Shown: positions 26,343 through 37,344 of the stretch, piece after piece
Layout: the number at the start of each line of letters is the position of its first letter
How positions within the stretch are numbered: the stretch's first letter is position 1
NCBI GenBank assembly: GCA_025351355.1
Contig: JANXWC010000139.1
Span: 1 to 64,000, forward strand
DNA length: 64,000 nt
Source: Hyphomicrobiaceae bacterium
GTDB lineage: Bacteria; Pseudomonadota; Alphaproteobacteria; Rhizobiales; Hyphomicrobiaceae
Reading direction: 5' to 3'
Program-made: the position numbers and the translations under genes
Notes under the pieces: model-generated
Databases searched by the model: none
What the model was told of the DNA's origin: nothing
The model's input: the letters and a program-made list of their open reading frames with translations, nothing else

Positions 26343-26437
26343 TCGACGACACCGAATTAAGGTTAAATCGTATTATGGCGACACAAATCGAAAGAACCGG
26401 ATAACCTTCTTGCATGTAACCGCGAGGAGTCCGCCAT

Positions 26438-26617
26438 ATGCGCGCTGTCCACCAAGCCCTGTTAACGTCGACGGCGTTGTTGCTGTCGATCACACCTTCG
26501 TCGGCCGCCTTCTGGAATTGCGCGGCACCTGAGATCGATGCACGCTCGGGAACGGCTGCCGTGTCCGTAATCATCGCCGTCGCGCTCGCCGTCCACCACC
26601 GTTATCGCGCGCAATAA
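26438..26617 (+). CDS. VPEID-CTERM-like sorting substrate (59 residues)
   Basis: A tiny gene with GAGGAG 8 bases before the ATG. The product has an N-terminal signal peptide (LLTSTALLLSITPSSAA), a short middle with one Cys (FWNCA), the sorting motif APEIDARSG (residues ~30-38), one membrane helix (AAVSVIIAVALAV) and a basic end HHRYRAQ. This is the tripartite layout of exosortase substrates, and the motif is a variant of VPEID. It ends 39 bases before the exosortase E gene, its obvious partner. The mature secreted part would be only a few residues, so it may be a lipid-anchored or signalling peptide. Confidence 0.78.
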   Translation: MRAVHQALLTSTALLLSITPSSAAFWNCAAPEIDARSGTAAVSVIIAVALAVHHRYRAQ

Positions 26618-26656
26618 TCACCGAGTTCGCATAGCCCCCCGGAATCGGCCGCCACC

Positions 26657-28273
26657 TTGCCCGCCTCAACGTCTTTGGCATCAGGCCTTCAGCGTCCGGC
26701 TTTGAGGACCACCGCATGGCTCGCGCTGTGCGTCACCGAGATGCTGTGCGTTTCGCTTGCCCACTACCTGCCGCACGCACTTCCTCAGTGGCAAAATCCG
26801 TTTTTCTATTTCCGCGTCTTCGGATTGACTGCGCTGGCGTCGGCTGCGGTATTCGCGCTGATGCTCTGGCCGGCTCGCGAGAGGGCCATCGCACACTGGC
26901 TTGACGCACAGTACAGCCACAACTGGCGCTTGCCACTGACAACCAACCTGACGCTGTTCGGCCTGCTGCTCGCCGCCACGCTAAAACTCGGATCTGTTGC
27001 AGCAAGCGGCAACGTACCATCACTCGACCTGATGCTCGGCTACAACATGCTCGTTGCCGCGTCTGCCTTTTCATTGCTCCGCATCGACGTACCGGTCCGC
27101 ACGCTGTTGCAGATCGTTTGCCGGAATTGGCAGACGGCCGCCGTCGCGCTCACCGTGGGCTGCCTGATCCGATTGCTGTCGTACTTTGCCCAGGATGGCT
27201 GGGAGACGCTCGCCGGCATGACGCTGCACGTCGTACACGGCGTCCTCGCGCTCTACGAAACCGACGTGGCCGTCGACCTCGCGCGCCGCGCCATCCAGGT
27301 CGACGACTTCGAGGTCACCATCGCCACCAACTGCTCGGGCTACGAAGGCATCGCCCTGACGACGGCGTTTCTCTCGGTTTACCTGTGGACGTTTCGCGCC
27401 GCCTTGCGCTTTCCGCGCGCCTTCCTGTTACTGCCAATCGGCATCGTCGGCATCTGGCTGCTCAACGCACTGCGTATCGTCGCGCTGGTGTCACTTGGCG
27501 TGCACGTCTCGCCCGCCGCCGCAGTGCAGGGCTTTCATTCGCAGGCCGGCTGGATCGCGTTCCTGATGGCAACGTTCGCGCTCATGGCATTGGCGCACAA
27601 TTCAAAATGGTTCTCCAGCGTCGCAGCCCGCCCAAAACCCCAGTCTGAGCCGACGGCATTGGCGTTTCTCGCGCCATTCATCGCGCTGATGTCAGGTGCC
27701 GTGCTGATGGCTGCAGCAGCGCCACGAGAACACCCCTTCTATATCATAAAATTCGTCGCCGTCATGTTTGCGGTCTGGCATTTCCGCACCGTTTATCGCC
27801 GGCTGGCTTGGACTTTCTCGTATGAGGGAGCAATTGCCGGGCTGCTTGTAGGCGCCCTGTGGGTCGCAACTGATCCACATGCTTCGTCGGGCAGCGCGCT
27901 TGCCGATTGGCTCTCACAACAATCGCCATGGGTGGCAATCGGCTGGCTCATCGTGCGCGCAATCGGCAGCACCGTGCTGATCCCGATCGCCGAAGAGTTG
28001 GCCTTTCGCGGCTTCGTCTATCGCCGCGTCATTGCGCCGACATTCGAGACTGTTTCTTTTGGGCAATATTCCTGGCTCGCGCTGGCAATCTCAAGCGCAG
28101 CGTTCGGATTGCTGCACGACCGCTGGTTGGCCGCCGGTCTTTCCGGCGCTGTGTTTACGCTCGTCATGTGCCGGACCAAAACATTGTCCGCGGCCGTCGT
28201 TGCACATGCGGCCGCGAACGTAGTCATTTTTTGTTGGGCAGTCGTCTTTCGTCAGTGGTCGCTGCTCGGATGA
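26657..28273 (+). CDS. xrtE: exosortase E fused to a CPBP (CAAX-type) protease
   Basis: The N-terminal ~310 residues are a multi-pass exosortase with the catalytic triad visible: Cys226 in TNCSGYEGIALTT, Arg273 in LNALRIVALVSLG and His294 in GFHSQAGWIAF. The C-terminal half is a CPBP intramembrane protease with PIAEELAFRGFVYRR (Glu446, Glu447, Arg451), FGLLHDRW and AHAAANVVIF. This fusion is the known exosortase E/protease of VPEID-CTERM systems. It would cut and process the small protein encoded just upstream. The start is a TTG at 26657; a later start is possible because there is no strong ribosome-binding site. Confidence 0.88.
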   Translation: MPASTSLASGLQRPALRTTAWLALCVTEMLCVSLAHYLPHALPQWQNPFFYFRVFGLTALASAAVFALMLWPARERAIAHWLDAQYSHNWRLPLTTNLTLFGLLLAATLKLGSVAASGNVPSLDLMLGYNMLVAASAFSLLRIDVPVRTLLQIVCRNWQTAAVALTVGCLIRLLSYFAQDGWETLAGMTLHVVHGVLALYETDVAVDLARRAIQVDDFEVTIATNCSGYEGIALTTAFLSVYLWTFRAALRFPRAFLLLPIGIVGIWLLNALRIVALVSLGVHVSPAAAVQGFHSQAGWIAFLMATFALMALAHNSKWFSSVAARPKPQSEPTALAFLAPFIALMSGAVLMAAAAPREHPFYIIKFVAVMFAVWHFRTVYRRLAWTFSYEGAIAGLLVGALWVATDPHASSGSALADWLSQQSPWVAIGWLIVRAIGSTVLIPIAEELAFRGFVYRRVIAPTFETVSFGQYSWLALAISSAAFGLLHDRWLAAGLSGAVFTLVMCRTKTLSAAVVAHAAANVVIFCWAVVFRQWSLLG

Positions 28274-28288
28274 GCGGCACTTGCCCGT

Positions 28289-28984
28289 TTATTTCAAAGG
28301 CACGTAGGCCGTTGGCTCGTCTCCGAGCTTAAATGTCACGCCAAGGCGCGCCACCCAGAATTTATCGTTCCATCGAGCATCACCGGAACATCCACCGCAA
28401 GCAGCATAGTTGCGATTGTCAGAGCCGAGATCGACGTACAGCGCCTCGGCGCGAAAATTCACGCGCTCGGAGTGCGCAAATTCCATGCCACCACCCAAAG
28501 TCCAGCCCGTCCTCCACGACGTGTCCGTCTGGCTGAATGCGAAGGCCGGGCTCTCGAGCGTGTGTGCGACATCCGCGAAAGCTAAGCCACCCGTTCCGTA
28601 GAGCAGCACATCGTCGCGCACCAACACGCCCAGCCGCCCACGCAAAGTTCCCATCCAATCAATCTTGCTGCGCAGAAAAATCGGATCAGGCCAGCTGCTG
28701 TTCGACTTGATCCCGAGATAACTCAGATCTGCTTCGATGCCGCTCACGACATTGCCGCAACGGATGCCATAGCCGATCACGCCGCCTGGCACGACCGCCG
28801 AACTACGCCCTCGTGCGCGGTCCGGCTCCCCTGGCGAACTCTGGCTGGCATCCAAACCACCAATTCCAAGTGTCGCGCCGACATACGGGCCGGAGAATCG
28901 TCCGGGCGAGCAATCGGCATACCCCGGCATCGCCGACCCGATCAAAGCCAAGCCGGCTGCGGCCGCTAAAGATAAGAATTTCAT
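28289..28984 (-). CDS. outer-membrane beta-barrel protein (Omp25/porin-like)
   Basis: A signal peptide (FLSLAAAAGLALIGSAMPGYA) is followed by an eight-stranded-barrel pattern of alternating residues: FSGPYVGATLGIGGLD, SGIEADLSYLGIKS, MGTLRGRLGVLVRDDVLLY and RAEALYVDLGSDN, ending near WVARLGVTFKLG. A mature Cys pair (CGNV.. and CGGCSG) may form disulfides. Start chosen at 28984 because GAGGAT precedes it. It is the single gene of its unit, convergent with the exosortase gene (16 bases apart). Confidence 0.85.
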   Translation of the reverse strand: MKFLSLAAAAGLALIGSAMPGYADCSPGRFSGPYVGATLGIGGLDASQSSPGEPDRARGRSSAVVPGGVIGYGIRCGNVVSGIEADLSYLGIKSNSSWPDPIFLRSKIDWMGTLRGRLGVLVRDDVLLYGTGGLAFADVAHTLESPAFAFSQTDTSWRTGWTLGGGMEFAHSERVNFRAEALYVDLGSDNRNYAACGGCSGDARWNDKFWVARLGVTFKLGDEPTAYVPLK

Positions 28985-29233
28985 TTTTATGATCCTCTTC
29001 CAGGAGATCAAACTCCCGGATATCCGTGTTGTCGGTCGTTGGACGCAATCACAGGACGCGAAGACGAATCGCAGTTAGAATAACAAAAAACAGTTGTTTC
29101 GTACACCGAAGCGTAAATTTGCTTATGTGAGCCATTCGCATCGGTCGCGAACCACTTCAGCAGAAAACTGCCGATCTAACGCTCGAATAGCAACCCGTCG
29201 GCTATCCCGCGCGGCCAACCCTGGAACAACTTC

Positions 29234-34159: not shown

Positions 34160-36046
34160 ATGGCAAGAGCTGCATCTTCCCTGGCGGCTTACAGGTCGCC
34201 GGTCAGGTCTGCATTGCGCCCATCGCGCACCGTGCGGCTGACATTGCTGCTGTCGAGCGGGCTGATCAATATACTGACACTGACCGGCTCGCTGTTCATG
34301 ATGCAGGTCTATGATCGCGTGCTCGGCAGTCAAAGCATCGAAACGCTGATCGCACTCAGCCTGATTGCGTTGTTTGCCTACGTCATGCAGGGCGTGCTGG
34401 ACGGCTATCGCGGACGCATCCTGACGTTGCTGGCCGAGCGGTTCGATGCCGAAATCGCGCCCAGGGTCAACGCGGCCAATCTGGTGCTGGCGTTGCGCAC
34501 CTCCAACGGCGCGGCTGAACAACAGCGCAACACGCGTCATGTGGAGGCCGTTCGCGCCTTCATTGCCGGCCCCGGTCCCATCGCGGCGTGCGATCTGATC
34601 TGGCTGCCGATCTATTTGACGGTGGCCTTCATCCTGCATTGGAGTCTGGCCGTAACCATCGTGGTGGCGTCGCTGTTTTTCGTCTGGCTGACGTTCATGG
34701 CTGAACGTGTCTCGAAGGTACCAGGCCGCAAAGCCGTCGAAGCCATGATCCGGCGGTCGCTGGAAGCCGAAAGCGCGTTACGAAACGCCGAAGTCGCTCA
34801 ATCGATGGGCATGCGCAAGGTGTTGGCCCAACGCTGGCAGACGCTGAACGACACCTTTCTGCTCGCCCAGCGCAAGGTATCCTATTCGGTGTCGGGTTAC
34901 GTCATCACTTCGAAGACGTCGCGCATGCTGCTGCAATCGCTGATGCTCGGGCTCGGTGCTTTTCTCGCGATCAAAGGCCAGATTTCAGCTGGCGCCATCA
35001 TTGCCGCGTCGATCATGTCGACCCGCGCACTTGCACCCATAGATCAGGCGATCGGCGCCTGGAAGCCGTTTGTCGCCGCGCGCGACGGCGTCCGTGCGCT
35101 TGAGGAGTTGTTGCGCCGGGTCGGGATCGAAGCGGAGCCGTTTGAATTGCCGGCGCCGAAGACCTCGCTGGCGGTCAATGATCTCGTGGTCGCCATCCCG
35201 CCATTCGTGCCGCCACATGGCCAGATGCCGGCAACCGCCGTACTGCAGGAGCGCATTGCCCTTCAGGGTATCCGCTTCGCCGCCAAGGCGGGCGAAATCA
35301 TTTGCGTCATGGGGCCGTCTGCATCGGGTAAATCTACGCTCGGCCGAGCTCTGGTCGGTGCCTGGCGCGCCCGCTCCGGCACCATCAGGTTGGACGACGC
35401 GCCCATCGAGCAATGGTCGCCCGACAAACTAGGCCCGCACATCGGTTATCTACCGCAAGACGTGCAGTTGTTCGACGGCACCATCGCCGAAAACATCGCC
35501 CGCTTCGAACCCGGGGAAACTGACGCCAAGGTACTCGCCGCCGCGATATCAGCCGAATTCGACCGGCACGTGCTGGCCATCGGTGGCTACGATCGGCGTG
35601 TCGGTCCCGGCGGCACTCATCTGTCGACCGGACAGCGACAACGCCTTGGCCTCGCCCGCGCACTTTATGGCGACCCCTTCCTTGTCGTTCTCGACGAACC
35701 TAATTCCAACCTCGATACGGAGGGCGAGGCGGCGCTGCTCAAGGCGCTGGAGGGCTTGAAGCAGCGCGGCGGCATCGGCGTGGTGATCGCCCACAATCTC
35801 AAAGTGCTCGAAGTGGCCGACCATGTCCTCTACCTTGATCGCGGCACCGCAATCGCATTCGGCGCGCGCGACATGGTGCTTAAACACCTGAAACTCGACA
35901 GCCTCATTCCAAAGAAAACTGCCGCACCTGTCACGACTGTGACCGATGCAGGTGAGGACGGCACAAGTGCTGCACCGCGCTCCCAGCAGCCGATGTTCCA
36001 AAGTCCGCGGCTAGTCCTGCAGCGCGGCACGGAAAGGGCGAAGTGA
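34160..36046 (+). CDS. type I secretion ABC transporter ATPase/permease (PrtD-like)
   Basis: An N-terminal half with about six helices (LLSSGLINILTLTGSLFMMQ and VYDRVLGSQSIETL are typical T1SS-family sequences) and a C-terminal ATPase with Walker A GPSASGKSTLGRAL, signature LSTGQRQRLGLARAL and Walker B FLVVLDEPNSNLD. The last ~50 residues are a hydrophilic tail (APVTTVTDAGEDGTSAAPRS). It overlaps the adaptor gene by 4 bases. The pair would export a protein lacking an N-terminal signal with a TolC-type outer channel encoded elsewhere. Confidence 0.9.
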   Translation: MARAASSLAAYRSPVRSALRPSRTVRLTLLLSSGLINILTLTGSLFMMQVYDRVLGSQSIETLIALSLIALFAYVMQGVLDGYRGRILTLLAERFDAEIAPRVNAANLVLALRTSNGAAEQQRNTRHVEAVRAFIAGPGPIAACDLIWLPIYLTVAFILHWSLAVTIVVASLFFVWLTFMAERVSKVPGRKAVEAMIRRSLEAESALRNAEVAQSMGMRKVLAQRWQTLNDTFLLAQRKVSYSVSGYVITSKTSRMLLQSLMLGLGAFLAIKGQISAGAIIAASIMSTRALAPIDQAIGAWKPFVAARDGVRALEELLRRVGIEAEPFELPAPKTSLAVNDLVVAIPPFVPPHGQMPATAVLQERIALQGIRFAAKAGEIICVMGPSASGKSTLGRALVGAWRARSGTIRLDDAPIEQWSPDKLGPHIGYLPQDVQLFDGTIAENIARFEPGETDAKVLAAAISAEFDRHVLAIGGYDRRVGPGGTHLSTGQRQRLGLARALYGDPFLVVLDEPNSNLDTEGEAALLKALEGLKQRGGIGVVIAHNLKVLEVADHVLYLDRGTAIAFGARDMVLKHLKLDSLIPKKTAAPVTTVTDAGEDGTSAAPRSQQPMFQSPRLVLQRGTERAK

Positions 36047-37344
36047 TGCTCGACACCGACATACTGCTGCGTCGACAAACGCGCCGCACCTTGCTGATCG
36101 CCGTGGTATTCGGCATCGGCACGTTCGCGTGGAGTGGCTTTGCCCCCCTCGAAGGGGCGGTCGCCGCCAACGGCATGCTGGTGCTGGAAAACAACGTCAA
36201 GAAGGTCCAGCACCCGAGCGGCGGCGTGATCGGAATGCTCAACGTCTACGAAGGCAAACGCGTGACTGCCGGCGAGCTGTTGCTGCGTCTGGATGAAACG
36301 GCGACGCGCGCCAATCTCGGGGTCATACTCAATGACTTGAATGCCGCGCTGGTTCGCCGGGCGCGTCTGTTGGCTGAGCGCGATAGTGCCGAGCACATGA
36401 CGTTTCCGCCGGAGTTGACGGACAAGGCGAAGTCCGAGCCGGACGTGGCCGCAATGGTCGAGAGCGAGCAGAAAGTTTTCGGCAGCCGCACCATTGGCCG
36501 TAACGGCCAGAAATTGCAGCTTTCCGAACGGATCGGCCAATTGCGTCGCGAGATTGAAGGCCTGGAGCTGCAAAAAACCTCGATCGAAATTCAGCTTTCT
36601 GTCGCCCGCAAGGAGCGCGACGAGTTGCAGGAACTTGCCGAAAAAGGTTTGGTGCCCAAGACACGGATGACGACGCTCGAACGCGAGATCGCTCGCAACG
36701 ACGGCGTGCTCGGCGAGATGATCTCGCGCATCGCTCAATCGCGCGGCAAAATCTCCGAAACTCAGATCCAGATCGATCAGGTCGATCGCGAAAAAGTCAC
36801 CGAAGCGAATAAAGACCTGCGTGAAACCGAAACCAGGATTTCCGAATTCCGCGAGCGTCGCATCGCTGCCGAGGATCAACTCAAGCGCGTCGACATCCGC
36901 GCGCCGATCAGCGGCACGGTCCAGCAGCTGACCGTCCACACCGTCGGCGGGGTGGTGTCATCGACCGACCAATTGATGATCATCATCCCCGACACTGATC
37001 AACTCGTCGTGGAATCGCGCGTCACACCACAGGATCGCGACCAACTCGTCCTCAACCAGCCGACGCGGGTTCGCTTCACCAGCTTCAATCAGCGGACGAC
37101 ACCGGAAGTTCAGGCAACCCTTTTCCGCATCAGCGGCGATGTGATCCGCGACCAGCAGACCGGGGCCTATTATTACAATGTCGGCGTGAGAGTCGCCGAT
37201 GACGAAATCGCCAAACTCAATGGCATCAAACTGGTGGCGGGCATGCCGGCCGAGGCGTTCTTCAAGACCAGCGATCGCACACTGTTGAGCTATCTATTCA
37301 AACCGCTCACCGACCACTGGCAAAAATCTTTTTCCGGTCGCTGA
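36043..37344 (+). CDS. type I secretion periplasmic adaptor (HlyD family)
   Basis: A membrane-fusion protein of 433 residues: an N-terminal membrane anchor (LLIAVVFGIGTFAWSGFAPL), a half-lipoyl motif split around a ~250-residue coiled coil (starting KLQLSERIGQLRREIEGLEL), and a C-terminal beta domain with IRAPISGTVQQL and GMPAEAFFKTSDRTLLSYLF. It links the inner-membrane ABC protein to an outer-membrane channel. Its start overlaps the ABC gene. Neither a channel nor an obvious RTX substrate is encoded nearby. Confidence 0.9.
   Translation: MMLDTDILLRRQTRRTLLIAVVFGIGTFAWSGFAPLEGAVAANGMLVLENNVKKVQHPSGGVIGMLNVYEGKRVTAGELLLRLDETATRANLGVILNDLNAALVRRARLLAERDSAEHMTFPPELTDKAKSEPDVAAMVESEQKVFGSRTIGRNGQKLQLSERIGQLRREIEGLELQKTSIEIQLSVARKERDELQELAEKGLVPKTRMTTLEREIARNDGVLGEMISRIAQSRGKISETQIQIDQVDREKVTEANKDLRETETRISEFRERRIAAEDQLKRVDIRAPISGTVQQLTVHTVGGVVSSTDQLMIIIPDTDQLVVESRVTPQDRDQLVLNQPTRVRFTSFNQRTTPEVQATLFRISGDVIRDQQTGAYYYNVGVRVADDEIAKLNGIKLVAGMPAEAFFKTSDRTLLSYLFKPLTDHWQKSFSGR

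Follow-up and report, generated by a model that had tools for sequence, protein, structure and literature searches.

The window, by which we mean the whole 64,000-nucleotide stretch of DNA that was analyzed, carries between hisD and an SDR gene a compact block in which a tiny gene for a peptide precursor lies directly upstream of xrtE, itself convergent with a gene for an outer-membrane barrel. The features of this block are the following.

26343-29233, no strand assigned: block of peptide gene, xrtE and outer-membrane protein (OMP) gene, between hisD and an SDR gene; the same site is empty in a genome of the same genus (G074; hisD-to-SDR synteny of L151)
26424-26429, + strand: Shine-Dalgarno-like GAGGAG read from the sequence, 8 nt before the ATG of the 59-residue gene
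26438-26617, + strand: gene for a 59-residue PEID-tail peptide precursor, proposed substrate of XrtE (open reading frame, leave-one-out HMM, homologues upstream of xrtE under purifying selection)
26438-26509, + strand: predicted signal peptide MRAVHQALLTSTALLLSITPSSAA, with cleavage inferred after Ala23 or Ala24 (-3/-1 rule)
26510-26524, + strand: FWNCA, a short pre-motif segment similar to the LKWNCA found at the same place in relatives (L006 and L015)
26525-26614, + strand: C-terminal sorting tag, i.e., APEIDARSG, a transmembrane helix and the basic end HHRYRAQ
26657-28273, + strand: xrtE, whose 538-residue product joins an exosortase E to a CPBP (glutamic) intramembrane protease (TIGR04162, 226 bits; PF09721; PF02517)
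27332-27538, + strand: exosortase catalytic residues Cys226 (27332-27334), Arg273 (27473-27475) and His294 (27536-27538)
27992-28219, + strand: CPBP catalytic residues Glu446, Glu447, Arg451, His487, His517 and Asn521, nearly invariant across xrtE loci
28289-29011, - strand: OmpA-like 8-stranded outer-membrane barrel (PF13505), convergent with xrtE and possible third member of the inserted block

The open reading frame starts with ATG and is translated as MRAVHQALLTSTALLLSITPSSAAFWNCAAPEIDARSGTAAVSVIIAVALAVHHRYRAQ. Residues 30-59, at the extreme end of the protein, comprise the PEID motif, a transmembrane helix and a basic C-terminus, while export is deduced from the signal peptide; here as elsewhere, signal peptides and cleavage sites were estimated by a simple -3/-1 rule of thumb, and their positions are approximate. 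The protein is nearly all export signal and sorting tag, and its gene is tiny and easily overlooked. Since xrtE runs from 26657 with a TTG start, the gap between both genes is exactly 39 nt. The frame, its tag and its spacing are all present as an earlier note on this DNA had described them. A scan for promoters and terminators yielded nothing beyond chance level.

The shortness of the gap and the TTG start of xrtE would be in keeping with a chance reading frame, or with a leader peptide whose translation tunes xrtE expression, and translational coupling of the two genes may indeed exist in addition. As a full explanation, this is hardly credible. The pattern used for the window (C-terminal [VAST]PE[IVLF][DN], transmembrane helix and basic end) has one match in the window versus one match in 60 order-3 Markov replicates of it, that is, a chance expectation of about 1 per 60 windows. 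A leave-one-out HMM built on 23 relatives retrieved the window tail with an E-value of 2.1e-7 among 1587 window ORFs, the next best standing at 0.14. The amino-acid sequence of the tag is conserved, and copies occur far from any xrtE. Both the chance frame and the leader peptide were rejected on the Markov replicates, the leave-one-out HMM and the dN/dS values given below.

The loci used for comparison were gathered by XrtE alone, from the window's own family and from genome contigs, and span Alpha- and Gammaproteobacteria, Rhodocyclaceae and Acidobacteriota. A strict upstream tail was defined as a same-strand gene with [VASTIG]PE[IVLF][DN], a helix and a basic end at most 500 nt upstream of xrtE. 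Such a gene occurs in 63 of the 92 distinct loci having at least 400 nt of upstream sequence, with a median gap of 42 nt; the conservation of the small frame in relatives, on which the earlier note had staked its case, is strongly in its favor. Among the 29 other loci, about 10 have a strict tail downstream of xrtE or at another place in the locus, a few carry a looser form of the motif, and no tail was found in the remaining ones. Altogether, 93 strict tails were counted in 748 kb, of which 70 occupy this upstream position; the rest are for the most part tandem copies at a greater upstream distance, or sit just downstream of xrtE. In an acidobacterium (L061, 3400-4400) and in a Cellvibrionales bacterium (L075, 3500-4760), between three and five tiny PEID-tail genes stand in tandem upstream of xrtE. 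The Pro-Glu of the motif is invariant among tails. Its first residue, in the 70 upstream tails, is Val in 31, Ala in 29, Ser in 5, Thr in 4 and Gly in 1, and in the window's own tail type Ala in 16, Val in 8 and Thr in 1; Ala is therefore ordinary at this position, and not the oddity that the earlier note took it for.

The small size of the precursor is likewise no peculiarity of this gene. The upstream tail proteins have a median length of 61 residues, the distance from the predicted signal cleavage site to the motif has a median of 10 residues and is at most 15 in 42 of 69 upstream tails, and some Acidobacteriota tails have merely 2-5 residues before the motif. By these predicted sites, a near-absent mature domain is the rule for the group: the earlier claim that there is almost no mature domain holds for the gene, and the trait belongs to the group as a whole. 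The smallest candidates seen are 42-residue tail genes upstream of xrtE at two loci (L008 and L017, MGWAAFAAAYCPPVPEFD...), which lack a classical signal peptide; at the other extreme, a few xrtE-linked tail proteins reach 167 (L078), 171 (L079) and 334 residues (L054). In 18 of 25 family-type sequences, an aromatic residue followed by Cys within three positions precedes the motif. Since signal peptide and tag are all that the gene encodes, it might be read as what is left of a larger PEP-CTERM-type protein after loss of its domain. We regard this as very improbable and rejected it, because the miniature form is widespread beside xrtE, in most loci of several phyla, and because dN/dS is well below 1 (0.03, 0.07 and 0.11 for the three closest tail-gene pairs, 0.11-0.36 for more distant ones).

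The pairing of tail and enzyme also holds at the scale of genomes. In the window's family, xrtE is present in 28 of 103 genomes, and a search with a tail profile recovered tails in 27 of these 28. The same search of the 75 genomes devoid of xrtE gave no credible tail, the sole match being weak (E 0.0037, in a 274-residue frame of genome G034). Fisher's test gave 6e-24 for this association, ignoring the shared ancestry of the genomes. The profile was trained on 24 tails, all from xrtE loci, so that the recovery of these 24 is partly circular; what is not circular is the absence of tails from genomes without xrtE and the finding of 11 further tail genes, unused in model building, which lie away from xrtE, are also tiny and all belong to genomes that have xrtE. 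The window's genome encodes a single exosortase, and the further PEID tails that the earlier note suggested looking for were not found in it beyond the 59-residue gene. PF07589 (PEP-CTERM) had no match in this genome at E <= 1. This combination points to a dedicated system.

XrtE combines in one protein the exosortase Cys/Arg/His residues and the CPBP signature EExxxR, H and HxxxN. Cys226, Arg273 and His294 are each kept in 98 of 98 distinct XrtE sequences. On the CPBP side, conservation across distinct loci amounts to 97/97 for Glu446, Glu447 and Arg451, 91/95 for His487, 93/93 for His517 and 91/93 for Asn521. Catalytic residues so nearly invariant in 98 distinct sequences suggest that the exosortase and CPBP halves are very probably both active. 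The AlphaFold2 model of XrtE is confident (pLDDT 88.8); neither a fold search of the PDB with this model nor a sequence search of the PDB with XrtE gave a significant match or a match, respectively.

In G074, the genome of the same genus, the SDR gene directly follows hisD, where the window has 2.9 kb with the peptide, xrtE and barrel genes in between. Elsewhere G074 carries another xrtE, a different and divergent one, and the small gene before it encodes a protein ending in APEIG, a helix and ERRRQK. At locus L119 (5500-7205) of a same-genus genome, a divergent xrtE follows a gene for a small APEIG (not PEID) protein and adjoins a fatty-acid-hydroxylase-family gene. The barrel is predicted to be 8-stranded and OmpA/OmpW-like. 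One may wonder whether the block forms a three-gene unit, in which the XrtE-processed peptide would be delivered to, or act with, this barrel. The barrel gene lies inside the same inserted block, and when other genomes were searched with it, the seven best matches all proved to adjoin xrtE (G009, G031, G037, G001, G066, G044 and G053), with G033 having one as well. Against this, no such gene is found at the locus in about 19 of the 28 genomes with xrtE, and some homologues come from genomes that have no xrtE (L160, L161, L164 and L165), where three of the four lie next to genes for type I secretion; this makes the barrel a frequent neighbor and not an obligate part. The three-gene unit, which would extend the substrate reading preferred below and does not exclude it, is thus a rather doubtful proposal.

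Several other observations concern this neighborhood. The window OMP has a C-terminal extension past its last strand which ends in PLK; homologues with this ending are found next to xrtE and also, in other genomes, next to genes for type I secretion. This end was considered as a specific XrtE acceptor and dropped, since PLK, PMK or SLK ends also occur in homologues whose genomes have no xrtE, as well as on further OMPs of the same genome. The OMP of L043 ends in YRF and was rejected as a member of the group. The xrtE-linked OMP gene of G009 (L136, 6666-7373) contains an in-frame TAG and is possibly a broken copy. About 6 kb from xrtE, the window encodes a type I secretion ABC transporter and an HlyD-type membrane fusion protein (34160-37344, + strand), and in L145 a pair of this kind is found at the flank of the OMP/xrtE block. 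A cluster of ABC transporters seen in 8 loci was set aside, being mostly unrelated ABC domains.

The analysis establishes the gene, how it is conserved and paired with xrtE, the selection acting on the peptide and the conservation of both active sites. A processing pathway, an acceptor and a location may be inferred on top of this, from what is established about exosortases and about CPBP sorting proteases (PMC1569441, PMC3237569, PMC11980579). The precursor would be exported by Sec and its N-terminus removed by signal peptidase, while the C-terminal helix would stay in the inner membrane, its basic end facing the cytoplasm. The periplasm would then contain no more than APEID and the roughly 5-7 residues (FWNCA) in front of it. 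The exosortase half, through Cys226/Arg273/His294, would then cut at or near PEID and join the short peptide to an acceptor, and the fused CPBP protease (Glu446/Glu447/Arg451/His487/His517) would also play a part in this pathway, its target being perhaps the stub left in the membrane or the product itself. What results would be no folded protein but a peptide of some 10 residues. On the sequence data, we consider it very likely that the 59-residue protein is a dedicated substrate of the adjoining XrtE, cut and joined as a short peptide. Its virtual lack of cargo, its position next to xrtE and the 2-5 residues before the motif in some Acidobacteriota members could also suit an unprocessed membrane partner or regulator of XrtE, such as a stabilizing or inhibitory subunit that merely looks like a tag. 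Such a role seems unlikely to us: the tripartite layout and the invariant Pro-Glu match exosortase tags, larger domains occur in a few xrtE-linked tails (up to 334 residues, L054), and additional copies at a distance from xrtE are present in several genomes, as expected for substrates.

Exosortase substrates are usually seen as proteins bearing a tag. Here the tag makes up almost the entire gene product, enzyme and tail are paired one to one, and two families of sorting proteases are united in the enzyme, both with their active sites kept. These features make the pair about the smallest test bed for two questions, namely which acceptors receive the substrates of exosortases and what a CPBP protease contributes. 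Substrates that are near-cargo-free precursors imply a short peptide as product, and the same miniature pair in distant bacteria suggests that XrtE handles short peptides and not ordinary surface proteins. We may then propose, as a possibility that we rate somewhat below even chances, that XrtE systems are devoted to peptide handling instead of protein sorting, at any rate those of the window's family and of many Acidobacteriota: a peptide of about 5-25 residues, often with aromatic-x-Cys in the window's family, would be joined by the combined exosortase/CPBP enzyme to a surface acceptor, either lipid, polysaccharide or the linked OmpA-like barrel. VPEID-CTERM and XrtE are a known pair, and the enzyme is a member of TIGR04162. 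What appears to be new, judging from the literature searched, is that substrates beside XrtE are as a rule near-cargo-free, that one enzyme serves one peptide here and that an OmpA-like barrel is often linked, although the NCBIfam model descriptions may already cover part of this; no mention of VPEID-CTERM was found in the literature searched.

Among known systems, exosortase/PEP-CTERM (EpsH; PMC1569441) shares with our pair an exosortase domain and a tripartite tag. Genomes with PEP-CTERM frequently encode twenty targets or more (PMC3237569), unlike the window's genome with its one exosortase and no PEP-CTERM target. In dedicated rhombosortase/GlyGly-CTERM systems, the genes for enzyme and target tend to adjoin when the target is single (PMC3237569), as in the present adjacent pair, whereas the protease family and the tag are unrelated. 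MrtJ/JDVT-CTERM and the myxosortase MrtX/MYXO-CTERM rely on a CPBP intramembrane protease with Glu-Glu, His and Asn, and the MrtJ neighborhood, like that of the XrtE pair, consists of one enzyme and one target; in contrast, MrtJ and MrtX are CPBP proteases acting alone on a Cys-containing tag (PMC11980579), while the CPBP protease of XrtE forms one protein with an exosortase and PEID is the motif of its tag. Cys before the motif, to be compared with those tags, is found in many but not all XrtE family peptides (18 of 25). The closest system is VPEID-CTERM (TIGR04161) with XrtE (TIGR04162). The enzyme passes TIGR04162 with 226.3 bits over residues 52-536 (cut-off 150), a substrate-type gene adjoins xrtE, and the 59-residue protein has the layout of TIGR04161, i.e., PEID, transmembrane helix, basic end and co-occurrence with exosortase E. 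TIGR04161 is moreover its sole NCBIfam match, which bears out the earlier description of a VPEID-CTERM-like gene directly before an exosortase E/CPBP fusion. The window tail, with Ala for Val, departs from the model in scoring 19.7 bits (E 6.4e-4) against a cut-off of 33, so that the curated model misses it and the peptide is classed as a related variant, not a member. Ten relatives' tails scanned individually gave 13.9-31.3 bits or no match, all under the cut-off, while 24 of 41 tails of a wider set matched at E <= 0.01 (best 4e-17). That the gene may escape annotation, as the earlier note suggested, is supported only at the level of the curated model, whose cut-off none of the eleven upstream tails scanned individually reaches; the substrate side of XrtE is thus probably under-annotated. 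Judged by its sequence, the pair is a below-cut-off variant of the known VPEID-CTERM/XrtE pair.
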